This document shows positions 5,983-57,761 of a DNA stretch of 64,000 nt, in pieces. Every line of letters begins with the position of its first letter. Position 1 is the first letter of the stretch. The DNA comes from a virus. Position numbers and translations under genes: made by a program. The stretch lies in IMG/VR virus record IMGVR_UViG_3300001782_000005, positions 186,001-250,000 of that record; one strand, 5' to 3'. The notes under the pieces were generated by a model. It did not search any database. It had not been told where the DNA came from and saw nothing but the letters and a program-made list of their open reading frames with translations.

Positions 5983-6453
5983 ATGGCTGGAGATCAAATT
6001 ATTATTGCTCCTCATTGTGACGATGAGATCATCGGTTGTTTTGAAATTCTAAATAAGAATACTATAGTTGTTTATACTGAACCCGCTGATCAAAAGAGAA
6101 GAGATGAGGCGGCGAAATTATTAAAAGATCACCAATTAGTTAAGGGTCAATTATTCTTTAAAGATATTCCCAGTACTATTATGTCACCTAAGAATATTTT
6201 TTATTTCCCTGATCCAGCCTATGAAATTCATCCTGCCCACAGAAAATGGGGATCAGTAGGTGAAGCGATGCTTAGAAGTGGATTCGATGTTATTTTCTAT
6301 TCTATTCAAATGAACGCTCCGTATATTCATGAAACCAAAGAACCTGGCGAGAAGAAAAGATTGTTAGATTTAGTTTATCCAAGTCAAATTAATCTATGGT
6401 TGAATGATGCAAAATATTATCTTTTTGAAGGAAGATGTAAATGGATAATGTAG
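5983..6453 (+). CDS. PIG-L (LmbE-like) family deacetylase
   Basis: A 156-aa protein. APHCDDEIIGC at residues 9-19 is the PIG-L/LmbE zinc motif (H11, D14) and HPAHR near residue 85 matches the distal HxxH ligand. The family removes acetyl groups from N-acetylglucosaminyl compounds such as GlcNAc-PI or mycothiol precursors. It is shorter than usual (about 220 aa). It is the first gene of a unit with the dCMP deaminase and a glycosyltransferase, which suggests a sugar added to DNA or the surface (inference). AAGGAG precedes the start. Confidence 0.75.
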   Translation: MAGDQIIIAPHCDDEIIGCFEILNKNTIVVYTEPADQKRRDEAAKLLKDHQLVKGQLFFKDIPSTIMSPKNIFYFPDPAYEIHPAHRKWGSVGEAMLRSGFDVIFYSIQMNAPYIHETKEPGEKKRLLDLVYPSQINLWLNDAKYYLFEGRCKWIM

Positions 6454-6908
6454 AGAGACCTAGTTGGAATAAATACTTTATGGAAATGGCCCATTTAGCT
6501 AAGAGCCGTTCAACTTGACTAAGGAGAAAAGTTGGAGCTGTCCTAGTTAAGGATCGGCAAGTAATAGCGACAGGGTATAATGGAGCACCGACTGGACAAA
6601 AGCATTGTCTCGATATAGGGTGTTTAAGAGAAGAGTTAAATATTCCATCTGGTGAAAAGCATGAGTTATGTAGAGCTGTACATGCCGAGCAAAACCTAAT
6701 CGCTCAAGCATCAAAACGTGGCATATCCAGTGAAGGTGCGACTGTTTATTGTACAACATTTCCATGTTTTATATGTTCTAAACTTCTAATAAACTCAGGT
6801 ATATCAGAGATATACTATGAAGAGTACTACAATGCTCCAGAGACAAAAGAGATGCTCGAAGAAGCGAATATTAGGTTAATTCATTGGAAAGGAGAAGAGG
6901 GTGAGTAG
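6441..6908 (+). CDS. dCMP deaminase with in-frame UGA at codon 26 (putative recoding)
   Basis: Converts dCMP to dUMP. The frame is full length (155 residues) if TGA at 6516-6518 is read through. Upstream of it: [16 protein letters not shown]. Downstream: [12 protein letters not shown] and [10 protein letters not shown]. The catalytic zinc motifs are intact: HAEQN (H81, E83) and TTFPCFIC (C109, C112). A second Cys/His cluster (KHC, GCL, ELCR) is typical of this family. Relatives carry RSTC-x-R-R/L-x-VGA, so UGA sits exactly at the conserved Cys. Options are selenocysteine, Cys suppression, or a point nonsense mutation or sequencing error (TGT or TGC to TGA). UGA is an ordinary stop in neighbouring genes. 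Start: ATG after GGAAG, overlapping the PIG-L gene. Confidence 0.75.
6519..6546 (+). promoter_or_regulatory. Hairpin immediately after the UGA codon
   Basis: CTA-(A)-GGA (6519-6525) pairs with TCCTAG (6541-6546) around a 15-nt loop that can itself form a short AGT/GCT stem capped by TGGA. It starts directly after the in-frame UGA at 6516-6518, where bacterial SECIS or readthrough elements lie. It is only about 6 bp with one bulge, and the region is also coding, so it may be chance. Confidence 0.35.
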
Positions 6909-7848
6909 ATTATTTTTTGTTCCACAATTGCCAATAAAGATGAGATATCAGGAATGGTGGTTCACACAGATTCCAGAGCAATTATCTAAGTATTTTGATA
7001 AAATTATTGTAGTGGGTGAACAATATGCTTTTACTGAGGGTGTTTCTAGCGGCAAGGATTTCTCAAATATTGAAAGAGCAATTAAATTTGAATGTAAACA
7101 AGTCAATGAGTTTTTAAATTATGACTTAGGAGATAGCGATTTTCTACTTCACGCGGATCTTAGTTTTCCTGGTATATTTCATAACGTATTGCATCATAAA
7201 CAGGTCAAGAACGCATTTGTGATGTGTCACGCCACTTCAAAGAACAAACTTGATTACTTTACCCCAGTCAGAAACAGTAAAGAGGCAGTTGAGTGTGGTC
7301 ATGCGAGATCATATAAAAAAGTATTTGTTGCTAGTGAATACCATAAGAAAAAATTGGGGTGGACAAATGTTGTAAATTTAGGAGCATTACCTAATCCTTC
7401 ATTTAAGGGTTGTAACTCCGAGAAGGTTTATCCTATTGTCTCAGTTGCTAGACACTCTGTTCAAAAAAGGACTAAGTCAATTGAAGACGCCGTAAGAAAG
7501 AGATATGGAGAAATAATTGATGCTCCTCAATTTTTAGAATGGTATGGTTATTATGATTTTCTAGGGAGCTCGGAGTGTATGTTAATTACTAGTAAGGAAG
7601 AGTGTTATGGTTACCAAGTTATTGATGCGGTAATAAATAATTGTATACCAATTGCTCCTAGAGGTTTTTCATATCCTGAGCTATTACCAGATGAATATCT
7701 TTATAGTGGAATAGATGAGTTATTCGAAATTCTAAGATGGACTGATGGGAAGGGAGTTAGAGGTTTAAAAGTTCCCAAGCTTCTTAATCAAGAAAAGATT
7801 GACAACTTTTATCAAAACCTTGTAATGGAGATGAAAGATGCCGTTTAA
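6901..7848 (+). CDS. GT-B fold glycosyltransferase-like protein
   Basis: A 315-aa protein with GTG start overlapping the deaminase end by 8 bp. The C-terminal half resembles GT4-type transferases: [13 protein letters not shown], then [17 protein letters not shown] and [16 protein letters not shown], an acidic motif followed by a helix and loop as in the nucleotide-sugar site. The N-terminal half is divergent. The substrate is unknown. Its position after PIG-L and deaminase genes allows a role in DNA hypermodification or surface glycosylation. Confidence 0.6.
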
Positions 7849-9419: not shown

Positions 9420-9442
9420 TTGATTTGTAATGGAGTATGTTT

Positions 9443-12400
9443 ATGTTTAGCATTAAGAACTCTTTTGCTGACTGTATGTCTTGCCCTCTCCTTGATGCCC
9501 CATCATGTATTCTTGAAACTAATTGTTCAGATAACCTAAAGGATATTGAAGTTGTATTTGTATCCGAAAATCCCGGAAAAAATGAGGTCAAGAAAAAGAG
9601 ACCTTTAATAGGAAGAGCGGGAAGAACATTCAGGAAACCATTTGATTTATATATTAGAGATAAATTCAAGTGGTTATTAACAAATTGTGTTTTATGTTGT
9701 ACGTTATTACCAGACGGTAAGACAGGTAACCCAACGCCAGAAATTATTGAGAGATGTAAAGAGAATGCTTTTAATATAATCGAAGCGTGTAGTCCGAAAT
9801 TGATTGTGGCTATGGGTGCAAGTCCAATGTCTGCTTTTGGTTTTGCAAAAACAGGTATAACTGATTTGAGAGGCCAAGTATTTAAATGGAGAGATTATGA
9901 TGTTCTCCTAACTGTTCATCCATCTTTTGTAAATAGAAATCAAAGTTATAAAGGTAAGTTTGAAAGGGATATACAAACTGCTGCAGTAATGCTTGGTGCA
10001 GAACTTGAAGTGAAAGCAGAGAAAGGGATGAATGCTGTAGGAACAGGAAAATATCGTTATAAAATTCCAGAGGAATTCTATAGTCCAGACTATAGACTTG
10101 TTGATGTCCAATTTTTACATAAGACAAATGAAGTTATACATATCTTTAGAGATAAGGATAATAATAAAATTTATCATAAGGAAAATGATGATTATTTCTG
10201 CTATAGAGTTCCAGAAGGTATTGAGAATAAACATCTTGTAGAATATGATAAATTGGAGATAATCAAAGTTCCATATAAACAAAAATCAGCACTAGATCCA
10301 GAAAGAACATACGAAGGTGATATAAGAATATCAGTAAAGTATGCCCAAGATTACTATCACTTTAGTAAGGGCGAACCATCAGAAAAAGAATTAAATATAA
10401 TGTTCTTGGATATTGAGACATACAGTAAAACAAAGGAATTTCCAAATGTTGAAGATGCGGATCATCCGATTTGTCTTATAACATACTATTATCATGGAAA
10501 ATACATAACATATGTAGTCGATAACAAGATTCTATTAAATGATAGAAATGCTCCAGATATTATAACAACTAAAGAGGATCCTATTCATATTTTTAAATCT
10601 GAGCGTGAAATGATCCTTAAATTTATAAAAGATTTGAGAACATTGGAACCAGACTTTCTCGTGGGTTGGAATGTAATTGGGTTTGACCTTTATTATATTT
10701 ATAACAGATGCAGAAAACTAAGAATAAAGCAAGAATCACTCTCAAAATTTAATGAAGTATCATTCTCAATTGATGAGAAAAGACAATATTGTGAGATTGC
10801 TGGGTTAGTAGTTCTTGATCTGCTTAGATTATATAGAAGCTTCACATTTACACAGAAAGAAAATTATCGTCTTGGAACAATCGCTCAGGAGGAGTTGGGA
10901 GAAGAGAAAACAGATGTTGGTGAGAACTTCTCGGAGAAATATGAGAAAGATATTAATGGAGCAATTGACTATAACATAAAAGACGTTGAATTGATTCTAC
11001 GAATAGATAATAAACTCCGACTTATAGTTTTAGAAAATGAAATTAGAAAAATTGGTAGCTCTAGTTTTGCTGGAGCATTTAGTAATCTTGGGAAACTTGA
11101 CAGCTTAGTGATTTCATTTTTGAAAGATAAAGGTTTTGCTTCAAGGAATGCAAATGTCCATAAAGTAAAAGAAGCTTCAATTCCTGGAGCATTTGTCAAG
11201 GAACCGAGAACAGGTATACATGAGTATATTGTTGATTTTGATTTCACATCCCTATATCCAAGTCTAATCTTAACCTATAACATTGGGATAAACACATTTG
11301 TTGCAAAGTTTAAAGATCATACGTTAGGATATGACTTTGTATATCAACTGGATAATCTCCCGGAAGAGTTCACTATAATCTATGATCCTGGTTTTCTTAA
11401 TAAAGAAATGACAGTCAAGAAAGAGGATTTTATTAAGAAGGTCAAAGATGCAAACCTTACATATACAATAAATGGATGTTTCTATAAACCACATGATAAA
11501 GAGGTTTCCGTTTATTCGGAGGTTTTGGACCATTTACTGATTTCTAGAAAAGAATATAAAGACAAAATGTTTGATGCCAAACAAGCAGGGGAAGATCATT
11601 TACATGATATGTACTATGGTCGTCAATTAGTTTACAAAGTTTTAGCTAACGCTTTATATGGAATTCTTACAAACCATTTCTTTAGATTCTACCATGACGA
11701 TCTCGGAAGTAGTATCACTCTAAGTGGTCAAGAAGCTTTGAAAACCTCAATCATTCATGGAAATAATTATGTTGATATGATTAAAAAGAAAGCTTCTAAA
11801 TACGAAGCTCCTGAACCACTGACAAAGCAAGAAATGTATGGTGATGTTACAAGAGATACTGAGTTTATCATTACGGGAGATACTGATAGTTTATTTGTAT
11901 CATTTGATGATATTGTAGATAAAAATAAATCAGAAGATGAGTTAATGAAGCAAATTGAAAGTTGGTGTGATGAAATTCAATTATTTTTGAACAATAAGAT
12001 CATTATGCCATTAGTTACTAATCATAATGTTCCTCTAGAAAGAAATCGTCTTGAGTTAAAGAATGAGCTAGTTATTAAGAGAGGTTTGTTTTTAGCTAAG
12101 AAACATTATGCAATTTATGTAACTTCGCAAGAGGGAAGGAAAACAGATGAAATAGTAAATATGGGTATTGCAACGAAACGAAGTGATTATCCGAGCTATA
12201 CAAAACAATCTCTAAGTGATTTATTGGATCTAATTCTGAAGTCAGAAGAAGTATCATTAAAGAAAATTATGGATTTTATTCACTCAAGAAAAACTTCATT
12301 TATTCATAAGATAAGAGCAGGTGATAAAAGAGTCGCTCGCCCTTCTGCATTTACGAGGAGATTAGATCATTATAAAAAAGTACCTCCTGGAGTAATCTCA

Positions 12401-12700
12401 ATGTTAAATTGGAATGAATTGGAGTATAAGATTTTTGATGTTGGTTCAAAAGGTTATCTATTCAAATTAAATGGCATAGACCTCATGAAAGCTCCTCCAG
12501 ACGTAGCTGAAAAATATAACCAAAAATTCTTAGCAAATGGTAGGAAATTGGACTATATATCTCTTCCAGATGAGGAAATATCTCTACCGTCATATTATGT
12601 AGTTGATGTTAGTGCAATGTTAAAATTTGCATGGGAGGATAGATTTAGTTTAATATTAGAACCAGTAATGAGTCCGAAGCAGGAACTAATGACAATCTAG
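9443..12700 (+). CDS. Uracil-DNA glycosylase / family B DNA polymerase fusion
   Basis: A protein of about 1085 aa. Residues 1-200 are a UDG-superfamily domain: CMSCPL near the N-terminus, VSENPGKNE, RPLIGRAGRTF, and TNCVLCCTLLP, with Cys spacing like the Fe-S-containing family 4/5 enzymes. HPSFVNRN may be the distal active-site loop. Then comes family B polymerase: exonuclease FLDIET (about residue 322), motif A DFDFTSLYPSLI (about 598), motif B KVLANALYG (about 731) and motif C GDTDSLF (about 812). It replicates phage DNA and may sense or remove uracil in the template. Start 9443 has better spacing to GGAGT than the in-frame ATG at 9437. The gene forms its own unit. Confidence 0.9.
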   Translation: MFSIKNSFADCMSCPLLDAPSCILETNCSDNLKDIEVVFVSENPGKNEVKKKRPLIGRAGRTFRKPFDLYIRDKFKWLLTNCVLCCTLLPDGKTGNPTPEIIERCKENAFNIIEACSPKLIVAMGASPMSAFGFAKTGITDLRGQVFKWRDYDVLLTVHPSFVNRNQSYKGKFERDIQTAAVMLGAELEVKAEKGMNAVGTGKYRYKIPEEFYSPDYRLVDVQFLHKTNEVIHIFRDKDNNKIYHKENDDYFCYRVPEGIENKHLVEYDKLEIIKVPYKQKSALDPERTYEGDIRISVKYAQDYYHFSKGEPSEKELNIMFLDIETYSKTKEFPNVEDADHPICLITYYYHGKYITYVVDNKILLNDRNAPDIITTKEDPIHIFKSEREMILKFIKDLRTLEPDFLVGWNVIGFDLYYIYNRCRKLRIKQESLSKFNEVSFSIDEKRQYCEIAGLVVLDLLRLYRSFTFTQKENYRLGTIAQEELGEEKTDVGENFSEKYEKDINGAIDYNIKDVELILRIDNKLRLIVLENEIRKIGSSSFAGAFSNLGKLDSLVISFLKDKGFASRNANVHKVKEASIPGAFVKEPRTGIHEYIVDFDFTSLYPSLILTYNIGINTFVAKFKDHTLGYDFVYQLDNLPEEFTIIYDPGFLNKEMTVKKEDFIKKVKDANLTYTINGCFYKPHDKEVSVYSEVLDHLLISRKEYKDKMFDAKQAGEDHLHDMYYGRQLVYKVLANALYGILTNHFFRFYHDDLGSSITLSGQEALKTSIIHGNNYVDMIKKKASKYEAPEPLTKQEMYGDVTRDTEFIITGDTDSLFVSFDDIVDKNKSEDELMKQIESWCDEIQLFLNNKIIMPLVTNHNVPLERNRLELKNELVIKRGLFLAKKHYAIYVTSQEGRKTDEIVNMGIATKRSDYPSYTKQSLSDLLDLILKSEEVSLKKIMDFIHSRKTSFIHKIRAGDKRVARPSAFTRRLDHYKKVPPGVISMLNWNELEYKIFDVGSKGYLFKLNGIDLMKAPPDVAEKYNQKFLANGRKLDYISLPDEEISLPSYYVVDVSAMLKFAWEDRFSLILEPVMSPKQELMTI

Positions 12701-14647: not shown

Positions 14648-15195
14648 TGCTTAAGAAAGTAAAAGAGAAGATTAGAAAAGCAAAAGAGGCCCTTAATGGA
14701 GGACCAGTAAATTCCCAAGTGGTTTCTCATAACCATAGTATGGGTCATGGTCATTCCTATACTGGAGTTACGCAAGGTCATACTCATGCGGTACCGGGGC
14801 ATAGTCATAGCCATAGTTTTAGTACAGCATGGCCTTATGATCCTTCTACTGGACCTCTAGCAGAAACCCTTGAATGGTTTCACAAAGTTTTTTGTCCTTG
14901 TGGCAGTATTGAATGGATAGAAGTTGTGCGTAAATGGTCATGGAGTCATATAAAGGGTGATAATGTAAATAAAAAATTGGTTATTTGTAAGGAGTGTGAA
15001 AAGGTTACAATAGTTGATGATGACGAGATTGTTGAGCAAAGAGACCCAATTGATATAGATGATAAGTTTGAATTCTTTGAAAAAATACAGGAATTAAGAA
15101 TAGATTTTGAGAAAAATCAGTTTCCCAGAACAACTACCACATGGCCTGCTACTTCAACAACGAGTACAACTCCACCGCCTAGGAGCTGGCGATGA
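14647..15195 (+). CDS. His-rich and Cys-containing protein with Thr-rich tail
   Basis: A 182-aa protein with no recognised family. Residues about 20-65 hold a dense His region (HNHSMGHGHS, GHTHAVPGHSHSHS) that could bind metal. CPCG and CKEC pairs may form a zinc site. An acidic helix follows and then a Thr/Pro-rich tail (TTTTWP, TTSTTPPP) like the linkers in the tail proteins at 52937 and 54047. The ATG overlaps the GroES stop. It might be a virion accessory protein. Confidence 0.6.
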   Translation: MLKKVKEKIRKAKEALNGGPVNSQVVSHNHSMGHGHSYTGVTQGHTHAVPGHSHSHSFSTAWPYDPSTGPLAETLEWFHKVFCPCGSIEWIEVVRKWSWSHIKGDNVNKKLVICKECEKVTIVDDDEIVEQRDPIDIDDKFEFFEKIQELRIDFEKNQFPRTTTTWPATSTTSTTPPPRSWR

Positions 15196-16055
15196 ATATA
15201 GTGAAAATAGAAGCAACAACACTCGAAGATGCATGGTTTAGAACATTATTTGAAATGATTGAAAATGGGCGAGTTTTCAAGATTGACCAAGGCTCATATG
15301 CTGGTCAGAAGCGACTTGAATTTGATTATGTTGTAGTTGGAATAAAAGATCCAGGAAATAAAGAACATATGTATTTACCCGATAGTAGTAGATTACTCCC
15401 TAGGATACCAGAGCAATATGGGATACCTAATCCTGTTGCTGATGATTATTTAGATGACTACTTACCATATTTAATGACTGATTTAGTTTCTGAGAAAGAA
15501 TCATATACTTACGGACAGAGAATAAATAAAGTCTCTATGCCTCTTGATTACTACTATAGAAGAAAAGAGTTTTTAGACGGTCATAAAACAGATGAAGAGT
15601 GTTTAGTCTATACTGATGCTTGTTGGGATAATCGAGAGGTTGTTCCTTTAGAATTTGATTCTCGAGGAAATGAGATGTGGTTTTTGAGTCAAGTTAATTG
15701 GGTAATATGGACTTATAAAAATAAAGGTCATAGAAATAATCAGATGGTTTTACAGGTTGCTAGTCCAAGTGATATTGTTTTAAAAGATCCACCGTGTTTA
15801 AGACATATTGATACAAGAGTTCAAGACAATAAGTTACATTTTTTCCCTTATTTTAGATCGTGGGATTTATGGAATGGTTTCCCTGCAAACTTAGCAGCGA
15901 TCCAATTATTGAAAGAATATATGGCAGCAGAAATTGGAGTTGACGATGGAGAAATAGTTTGTGCATCTAAAGGTCTCCATATTTATGATTATGCTTTTGA
16001 TCTGGCCAAATGCGTCAGAATGAAAGAAGAGGGTTTTATGTTTAAGGGGGAATAA
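15192..16055 (+). CDS. Thymidylate synthase-like (ThyA superfamily) protein
   Basis: A 287-aa protein of the ThyA fold. C-terminal landmarks: PPCLRHIDTRV (catalytic Cys), FRSWDLWNGFPANLAA (the RSxD phosphate and Asn positions) and GLHIYDYAFD (the His-x-Tyr sugar site). The Asn in GFPANLAA is the residue that favours dUMP; dCMP hydroxymethylases carry Asp there. The N-terminal half is divergent. It would methylate or hydroxymethylate dUMP, using product of the dCMP deaminase at 6441. The ATG overlaps the previous stop. Confidence 0.8.
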   Translation: MNIVKIEATTLEDAWFRTLFEMIENGRVFKIDQGSYAGQKRLEFDYVVVGIKDPGNKEHMYLPDSSRLLPRIPEQYGIPNPVADDYLDDYLPYLMTDLVSEKESYTYGQRINKVSMPLDYYYRRKEFLDGHKTDEECLVYTDACWDNREVVPLEFDSRGNEMWFLSQVNWVIWTYKNKGHRNNQMVLQVASPSDIVLKDPPCLRHIDTRVQDNKLHFFPYFRSWDLWNGFPANLAAIQLLKEYMAAEIGVDDGEIVCASKGLHIYDYAFDLAKCVRMKEEGFMFKGE

Positions 16056-32134: not shown

Positions 32135-33298
32135 TCACCTAGAATGTACGATACCCAATTTTTCTTCTTCATATGGAGCGGATATCGGTAGTCCTTCTAA
32201 CTCCCTCCACTTCCTCCAGAAGTCAAGAAGAAATATTTTGAGCATATAGCGAATACTCATATTCTTTATATGGTTATCGCTTATGATATTACTCAAGACA
32301 AACTTCTTTGCTTCTTTTAGAGTTGGTTGTTTTTTCTGTTTTGCCAACCATTTCTTACATAACTCATATTTCTCAGAGTTAATGGTCAGGGTTCCCTCAG
32401 AATCATGGGGGTCTTTTTTATAGAGGATTTGTTTTTGCCTTAGAGCTCTTATGAAGAACTCCCTTCTTCCCTGCATTCTAGTTCTGTAATCATAGAAAAT
32501 AGGTGAATAAATATTATCTTGCTTACGAAGGAAACTGGTTGCCAGGACATGGAGTTTTGTTTTTAGGTATGGGGAATATGTTATACTCTTCTTTGTTTTG
32601 GTTTTACCAGACTTATCTGTATATTCCCTATCGACTAAGTGGTGAGATTTCTTACTTCTACCTTCTCCTCTGACAACCTCTTCACCTTCGATCTCATCTA
32701 GAGTCCATACCACGTCAAGACCAGCATAACTCCAAAATGCGGTGACATGGTTTGCCCTATGAGGATCAAGTTCGCTCACAAGAACGCCGCCCATTGTAGG
32801 ACCAACTCCTTCAAGTCCTTTCAGGAATTCTGTCCAGATTGGAAACTCATCAAGAAATTTCTCAATTTGCTTATTGATCTTGTACTCCTGTTTGACAAGA
32901 GATATATAGGTGTCAACAAATATAAACATAATTTCACCAGAGATTATACCAGGGTGTGCATCCTTCATAATCTTAGGAATCTCTTTCATGTTTATCACAA
33001 CACCGTCAGTGATTCTCTTGTATTCTCTAGAGATAAGTCCCATTAACTCTTTTGGGAGACCATAAAGACCTTCTTTCTTTTCTCCCGGTTTTAGTCCAAA
33101 GCGACGATATAGATTACCAAGAATCCTATTTCCCATCCTGATCCTATCCCTCTGAATATCGTCATATCCTCTAATTAATCCTCTCAATTCAATCTTTGGA
33201 CTCCACAACTCAGGTACAGGTTGCACAGGTATGCTAAAACCTCTGCCCTTGAAAACATCTGCGATTGATTTTATAGGTTCTAAAACTTCCTTAGCCAT
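32135..33298 (-). CDS. Transposase_20 (IS110/IS116-type C-terminal domain) protein
   Basis: A 387-aa protein. Residues about 160-200, GLEGVGPTMGGVLVSELDP and AFWSYAGLDVVW, match the helix-hairpin-helix-like Transposase_20 domain of IS110 transposases. The basic SKKSHHLVDREYTDKSGKTK segment and a long helical tail follow. The N-terminal DEDD RuvC-like catalytic domain of IS110 is not evident. No inverted repeats or second ORF flank it. Its ribosome site (AAGGAG) directly abuts the first unit of the 36-bp-period array at 33312. A DNA-binding or RNA-guided role is possible but not shown. Confidence 0.7.
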   Translation of the reverse strand: MAKEVLEPIKSIADVFKGRGFSIPVQPVPELWSPKIELRGLIRGYDDIQRDRIRMGNRILGNLYRRFGLKPGEKKEGLYGLPKELMGLISREYKRITDGVVINMKEIPKIMKDAHPGIISGEIMFIFVDTYISLVKQEYKINKQIEKFLDEFPIWTEFLKGLEGVGPTMGGVLVSELDPHRANHVTAFWSYAGLDVVWTLDEIEGEEVVRGEGRSKKSHHLVDREYTDKSGKTKTKKSITYSPYLKTKLHVLATSFLRKQDNIYSPIFYDYRTRMQGRREFFIRALRQKQILYKKDPHDSEGTLTINSEKYELCKKWLAKQKKQPTLKEAKKFVLSNIISDNHIKNMSIRYMLKIFLLDFWRKWRELEGLPISAPYEEEKLGIVHSR

Positions 33299-34896: not shown

Positions 34897-35038
34897 GGTA
34901 GGGGGTGGGAATCGAACCCAAAGACGGTATTGGCAGTTGAAAGGAGGAAAGACCGCCAACTTTGGAAAAGAGTCCTCCCGACCGTCTTGGATGGTGGTAG
35001 AACAACCATCCAGCATTCCGGTTGCCATTCCCCCTACC
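34897..35038 (-). ncRNA. 142-nt tRNA-like RNA
   Basis: Read on the minus strand: a 9-bp acceptor-like stem GGTAGGGGG/CCCCCTACC, a T-arm TGGG-TTCGATT-CCCA with canonical T-loop, a GGCA/TGCT D-like arm, an 8-bp hairpin TGGATGGT/ACCATCCA, and an insert closed by AAGACGGT/ACCGTCTT (8 bp) holding GGAGGA/TCCTCC and a possible GTTGGC/GCCAAT pairing. 9+4 acceptor/T-arm pairing recalls tRNA-Sec, but the length, the missing normal anticodon loop (GTTCTAC at best, TCT) and the absence of encoded CCA do not. No tmRNA tag frame is seen. It may be a tRNA mimic or an intron-bearing tRNA. Confidence 0.6.
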
Positions 35039-57693: not shown

Positions 57694-57761
57694 GCGGAGG
57701 CCGGGTGGCCGGGATGGACCTTCCAAGTCCAGAAGGGGTTCGACTCCTCTCCCCCGCTCCA
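57694..57761 (+). tRNA. tRNA-Gly (anticodon TCC), short D-arm
   Basis: GCGGAGG/CCCCCGC acceptor (one A-C mismatch), anticodon arm TGGAC-CTTCCAA-GTCCA with anticodon TCC (reads GGA), T-arm AGGGG-TTCGACT-CCTCT, discriminator T and encoded CCA. The D-arm is a short CCGG-GTGG-CCGG, so the whole is only 68 nt with CCA. Confidence 0.85.

Follow-up and report, generated by a model that had tools for sequence, protein, structure and literature searches.

An in-frame UGA at a conserved cysteine position of a phage dCMP deaminase gene, a candidate for selenocysteine decoding

The locus studied here raises the question of whether a dCMP deaminase gene with a UGA codon at the place of a conserved cysteine is translated across that codon and, if so, which residue is inserted there. 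The gene lies in a stretch of 64,000 bp (hereafter, the window, to which coordinates refer unless stated otherwise), corresponding to positions 186,001 to 250,000 of the IMG/VR virus record IMGVR_UViG_3300001782_000005. The whole record has 277,131 bp and a 94-bp exact direct repeat common to both ends; on the basis of this shared terminal repeat, it is probably the complete and apparently closed genome of a giant phage. It encodes a T4-type family B polymerase, a gyrase, a ribonucleotide reductase, and an RNA polymerase beta-like protein, and its capsid protein is nearest to that of phiR1-37, a phage whose DNA contains uracil. The family B polymerase (window 9437–12700) carries a fused N-terminal uracil-DNA glycosylase domain (residues 36–173, E 2e-14). 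In addition, a weak match to thymidylate synthase (43 bits, C-terminal part only) was found at window 15192–16055, and its product could possibly act with the deaminase to produce dTMP or a modified nucleotide.

The deaminase gene and its internal UGA

The features that define the gene and its immediate neighbours are the following:

5983–6453, plus strand: upstream ORF from the ORF list, overlapping the start of the deaminase gene, without a Pfam match
6441–6908, plus strand: dCMP deaminase gene, read through its internal UGA, 155 codons plus TAG, assigned from its translation, Pfam PF00383, fold match, and synonymous drift
6516–6518, plus strand: in-frame UGA, codon 26, at the Cys of R-S-T-C, with the same TGA in two near-identical contigs and a diverged relative
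6681–6689, plus strand: catalytic H-A-E motif, whose His81 and Glu83 do not vary across 80 homologues
6765–6776, plus strand: catalytic PC-xx-C motif, cysteines 109 and 112, present in 78 of the 78 homologues aligned there
6901–7848, plus strand: downstream ORF from the ORF list, whose GTG start overlaps the deaminase stop as GTGAGTAG

Translation of the 6441–6908 frame showed a single internal TGA, at 6516–6518, in a sequence otherwise open from its ATG to the TAG, with HAEQN followed by PCFIC and a C-terminal GEEGE before the stop. The match to PF00383 reached 92.8 bits (cut-off of 25), with the catalytic HAE and PCxxC both present. The first-pass annotation had described a frame intact on both sides of codon 26 and a full set of zinc and catalytic residues, and both descriptions hold. 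A predicted model of the protein (pLDDT 87.8) gave 2hvw_A as its best PDB match (E 5.7e-18, TM 0.83/0.88), and the closest solved structures were 2hvv, 1vq2, and 4p9c. By family profile, motifs, and fold, the product is a dCMP deaminase, with its activity predicted. A check for a second functional deaminase found none, PF00383 having no match outside the 6441–6908 gene in the 277,131-bp record. The overlap GTGAGTAG between its stop and the downstream GTG is the same in the diverged relative, IMGVR_UViG_3300029827_000001.

Conservation of the UGA and selection around it

A base error or a nonsense mutation was the alternative considered in the first-pass annotation, and indeed a single substitution is enough to turn a Cys codon into TGA. 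Against it, the same TGA was found in the IMG/VR contigs 3300027888_000004 and 3300027893_000003, the DNA of which is identical to the record over 10.4 kb and which are probably the same virus in other assemblies, and also in the diverged contig IMGVR_UViG_3300029827_000001, with 73–79% DNA identity and conserved gene order. The deaminases of these two viruses share 90% of their protein sequence at a dS of about 1. Along the 129 codons located 3' of the TGA, 51 differ between them, 44 synonymously and 7 nonsynonymously (dN 0.033, dS 1.04, dN/dS about 0.03), and 47 of the 58 substitutions fall in third positions (p 1e-13). Neutral simulations gave a mean of 38 nonsynonymous codons, and a number as low as seven appeared in 0 of 2000. 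On the 5' side, codons 1–11 are free to vary, and codons 12–25 showed five synonymous changes and one nonsynonymous change; zero changes were detected in codons 23–32, which flank the UGA. A base error at 6516–6518 is excluded by the presence of the TGA in three near-identical assemblies and the diverged virus, and a recent nonsense mutation in a decaying gene is very unlikely, given a second virus with the same codon, the low dN/dS beyond it, and a frame otherwise undamaged. The alternative can thus be taken as refuted, with a negligible probability left to decay or error.

Between the TGA and codon 138, the window gene lacks any in-frame ATG, GTG, or TTG, and the gene of the relative has one in-frame TTG past the UGA, at codon 76. 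These start codons bear on a translation in two pieces, namely a 25-residue peptide and a restart after the UGA aided by AAGGAG, a motif that does appear shortly past the stop, within CTAAGGAGAAAAGTTG. However, the TTG behind this AAGGAG is out of frame, the window gene offers no in-frame start before codon 138, and the changes in codons 12–25 show an N-terminal helix preserved along with the rest of the enzyme, so that we regard this alternative as very improbable. The retention of the TGA in a second virus, the purifying selection on both sides of it, and the lack of a restart codon in the window gene lead to the conclusion that the UGA is decoded. The simplest conclusion from these comparisons is that ribosomes pass UGA26, and readthrough is very probable.

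With respect to its distribution, strict and relaxed patterns for other TGA-containing deaminases recovered the same three viral contigs and no others, and a search of the GTDB collection (84,980 bacterial and archaeal genomes) with the strict one gave no match; such patterns presuppose the usual spacing and core motif, and unusual relatives could escape them. Among Cys-type proteins, those closest to the product of the UGA gene are 55–60% identical to it and encoded in other viral contigs, and the members of the phage family found through the capsid protein have a more distant deaminase (about 40% identity), with Cys where readable. A TGA in the relative G011 was rejected as a recoded codon, as it is located upstream of the ATG of that gene. 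From this pattern, Cys was probably replaced by UGA in a single event that preceded the split of the two UGA viruses. As a separate observation, the 171-kb contig IMGVR_UViG_3300035034_002798 contains the same deaminase locus twice in opposite orientations, corresponding either to a palindromic assembly or to a long inverted repeat.

A host search through an IS110-like ORF and the capsid gene gave no usable host link. The former (window 32135–33298, minus strand) was present only within the phage family, with 100% and 83% identity, and had no match in phage or plasmid collections. Capsid genes of the family (70–85% identity) were detected in three unrelated MAGs, labelled as Thermoplasmatales, Woesearchaeota, and Heimdallarchaeota, and these three archaeal cases are probably mis-binned phage contigs.

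Decoding of UGA26

UGA is a normal stop in this phage, as the first-pass annotation had stated, since TGA terminates 66 of the 281 ORFs that reach 100 aa or more. No second recoded in-frame TGA was detected in the phage genome, either by comparison with the contig IMGVR_UViG_3300029827_000001 and with two other relatives or in a scan of all TGA extensions, the in-frame-stop scans having been filtered against antisense frames. A single recoded UGA is what would be expected for selenocysteine and not for a reassigned code. Bacterial codes in which UGA specifies Trp or Gly exist, and a host using one of them would read the codon as normal sense; nonetheless, reassignment across the whole genome was rejected on the basis of the TGA stops and the single recoded codon, and such a host is scarcely credible on the same grounds.

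Regarding the phage's own decoding capacity, ARAGORN, run with and without introns, found only tRNAs for Pro, His, Cys(GCA), and Trp(CCA), with no UCA-anticodon tRNA in the phage genome; a phage-encoded suppressor tRNA was rejected accordingly. The selB, selD, and tRNA-Sec genes are also absent from the phage genome, and therefore the decoding must come from the host.

Several tRNA-like sequences were noticed in the course of these searches. One of them, of 104 nt (record 80243–80346, minus strand), adjoins the RNA polymerase gene and presents a 7-bp acceptor stem, a long variable arm, and a good T arm; its D arm is not clear, and the place of the anticodon is taken by an odd 14-nt loop without UCA there. 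Its best family is tRNA-Sec, at 29.8 bits, below the cut-off; it is also present in a near-identical contig, and relatives gave no clear counterpart. Two additional elements, tRNA-like or degenerate tRNAs, scored against the tRNA-Sec model at window 34897–34983 (minus strand, 22.3 bits), with a long loop in the anticodon position, and at window 57699–57758 (plus strand, 16.5 bits). Separately, the related phages G007 and G026, which carry 23–29 tRNA genes, encode a CUA-anticodon tRNA (Pyl according to ARAGORN) at 66784–66860 in G007 and at 168062–168133, minus strand, in G026. TAG still ends 22 of 180 long ORFs in G007 and 15 of 172 in G026, and amber suppression in this phage family is possible.

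As for the residue that the UGA replaces, the first-pass annotation had placed it at the Cys of an RSTC motif and had pointed to UGA or Cys variants in related viruses as evidence to look for. Both were found: codon 26 across 80 viral homologues is TGT in 45, TGC in 31, TGA in 2, and an Ala codon in 2, so that the aligned residue is Cys in 76 of the 78 UGA-free homologues and Ala in the other two, or Cys in 78 of 80 if the two UGA copies are counted as Cys. Three other cysteines would act together with this position:

6606–6608, plus strand: Cys56 codon, putative secondary-zinc ligand, Cys in 23/23 homologues of at least 50% identity and in 78/80 overall
6621–6623, plus strand: Cys61 codon, putative secondary-zinc ligand, Cys in 63/80 homologues and His in 13/80
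6669–6671, plus strand: Cys77 codon, putative secondary-zinc ligand, Cys in 23/23 close homologues and in 50/80 overall

Cys26, Cys56, Cys61, and Cys77 do not vary among the 23 homologues that reach 50% identity or more, and 76 of 80 homologues carry Cys or His at position 61, an alternation expected of a zinc ligand. In the T4 dCMP deaminase, the equivalent of residue 26 is Cys19, which we take to be used at a secondary zinc. From this conservation, UGA26 very probably stands for one of four putative secondary-zinc ligands. A secondary zinc near loop 3 has been described for dCMP deaminases (PMC4683357).

Downstream of the UGA, a candidate signal was identified:

6537–6558, plus strand: SECIS-like hairpin with a 4+4 bp stem and one bulge, -9.4 kcal/mol by RNA folding
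6545–6549, plus strand: apical loop AGUUA of the hairpin, with G second and then U, 26 nt past the UGA

A hairpin starting directly after the UGA had been proposed at first pass, and the structure at that place turned out to be weak (-2.7 kcal/mol here and about 0 in the relative). The stable and conserved stem-loop corresponds to 6537–6558 and begins 18 nt past the UGA. In IMGVR_UViG_3300029827_000001, the hairpin has a continuous stem of 8 bp (-10.3 kcal/mol), with the same AGUUA loop and the same spacing; 4 of its 22 bases changed between the two viruses, which left a stable stem and an identical loop. The constraints of the bacterial SECIS (bSECIS) model were taken from PMC13188914: a loop of 3–9 nt with G within its first two bases, a stem of at least 4 bp, a spacing of 16–37 nt, and an energy of at most -7.5 kcal/mol. 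The hairpin lies within all of them in both UGA viruses.

As a natural control, 275 orthologous Cys codons shared by the two genomes were examined; one passed in both and none did so with the same loop. In a larger set of 1943 identity-matched control codon pairs, 1.2% passed in both viruses, 14 (0.72%) passed with the same loop, and 0.26% reached -9.4 kcal/mol or below in both. The stability of the hairpin is modest compared with dinucleotide shuffles (z of -1.0 in the window and -1.5 in the relative). Compliant hairpins were also present in 16 of the 78 Cys-type deaminases, mostly GC-rich, and in 3 of the 41 AT-rich ones, and we consider these as chance occurrences. The hairpin thus favours selenocysteine as supportive evidence and not as proof.

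A leaky readthrough by near-cognate host tRNAs (e.g., those for Trp or Cys), which would yield little full-length enzyme and make the UGA a throttle on expression, was also weighed. UGA followed by C is a known leaky context, and both viruses retain UGA CUA; furthermore, the phage carries its own tRNA-Trp(CCA) and tRNA-Cys(GCA), and phage Q-beta is a known case of readthrough at an in-frame stop (PMC8310308). However, leakiness leaves unexplained the precise placement of the stop at an invariant Cys and the conservation of a SECIS-like hairpin downstream of it. An alignment of the phage tRNA-Trp showed no G24A (Hirsh-type) change, and Trp in place of a zinc ligand should damage the enzyme. We consider this explanation rather unlikely.

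Insertion of Cys by a host opal tRNA-Cys, for instance of the selC* type with a UCA anticodon, would produce an ordinary Cys deaminase, in keeping with a residue that is Cys in nearly all homologues, as a zinc site expects. A gene decoded in this manner would show the same features as a selenoprotein gene. These tRNAs have been proposed to act together with a second SelB (SelB*) and a dedicated CysRS (PMC7609411), and SelB* too would be expected to require a hairpin. Opal tRNA-Cys has been reported in anaerobic Firmicutes, Thermodesulfobacteria, Nitrospirae, and Proteobacteria, and selB* in Syntrophobacterales and Desulfobacterales (PMC7609411). On the other hand, this decoding is rarer in nature than that of selenocysteine, the phage has a normal tRNA-Cys(GCA) and no UCA tRNA, and there is no evident gain over retaining a Cys codon, which makes it quite unlikely in our view.

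A lone UGA at a Cys position, a compliant hairpin past it, and UGA used otherwise as a stop give the locus the appearance of a selenoprotein gene, and we judge it probable, with a confidence moderately above even, that UGA26 is decoded as selenocysteine by host machinery. The initial proposal, in which a conserved Cys position is subject either to insertion of selenocysteine or to Cys suppression, is in this way supported by the conserved TGA, the purifying selection, and the SECIS-like hairpin. Several points count against selenocysteine: tRNA-Sec, selB, and selD are lacking in the phage, the hairpin is modest and has chance counterparts among the Cys homologues, the deaminase UGA is found in two lineages only, and selenocysteine as a structural zinc ligand, instead of a redox site, would be unusual. 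Under the selenocysteine reading, a host SelB loaded with Sec-tRNA-Sec would bind the hairpin at 6537–6558 and deliver Sec to UGA26, giving rise to a deaminase of 155 residues in which Sec26 would replace one of four cysteines that bind the secondary zinc close to the active-site loop, and the catalytic zinc site (H81, C109, C112) would stay ordinary. In this scheme, we infer the identity of the residue, the role of the hairpin as a signal, the supply of the machinery by the host, and the binding of zinc by residue 26.

Comparison with known systems

We give a slightly better than even chance to the proposal that this gene represents the first phage selenoprotein backed by comparative evidence and founds a new family of selenoproteins, a Sec-containing dCMP deaminase with Sec as a secondary-zinc ligand, which would make the DNA-precursor synthesis of the phage dependent on host selenium and on the host machinery for Sec. 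No tailed-phage selenoprotein was named in the literature searched, and "first" is therefore used with reserve; likewise, neither a deaminase nor a phage appeared in the reviews of prokaryotic selenoproteins and the recent prediction study consulted. If true, phages can evolve a dependence on the expanded code of their host through a recoded UGA in a gene of core metabolism, the host range would be tied to selenium metabolism and offer a marker for host prediction, and the enzyme would provide a system for testing Sec as a structural zinc ligand. Since gene callers truncate UGA-recoded genes, more of them may be hidden in viral metagenomes.

Compared with bacterial selenoprotein genes that use a bSECIS, such as those of the E. 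coli formate dehydrogenases, the locus shares an in-frame UGA at the Cys position of homologues and a hairpin within the coding sequence past it, with G in the loop and a spacing in the published range. It differs in being encoded by a phage that lacks selB, selD, and tRNA-Sec, and in that Sec would occupy a probable structural zinc ligand and not a redox centre. Selenoproteins have been found in many bacteria, and the known viral selenoproteins are the glutathione peroxidases of poxviruses (molluscum contagiosum and fowlpox), which are also virus-encoded and in need of the Sec machinery of the host (PMC8310308); in contrast, they belong to eukaryotic viruses, use a eukaryotic SECIS, and are redox enzymes taken from the host. 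In huge phages, tRNA-Sec genes have been annotated with no selenoprotein named (PMC10747093), which likewise points to Sec use in large phages; those are cases of a tRNA without a named selenoprotein, whereas here there is a candidate selenoprotein without the tRNA. The selC* tRNA-Cys/SelB* system also decodes UGA via a SelB-like factor (PMC7609411), although it would insert Cys, and no sign of selC* or SelB* was found in this phage. Finally, the dCMP deaminases of Streptococcus mutans (2hvw), phage T4 (1vq2), and cyanophage S-TIM5 (4p9c) have the same fold and catalytic motifs as the protein described here and differ from it in carrying an ordinary Cys at the position that matches residue 26.
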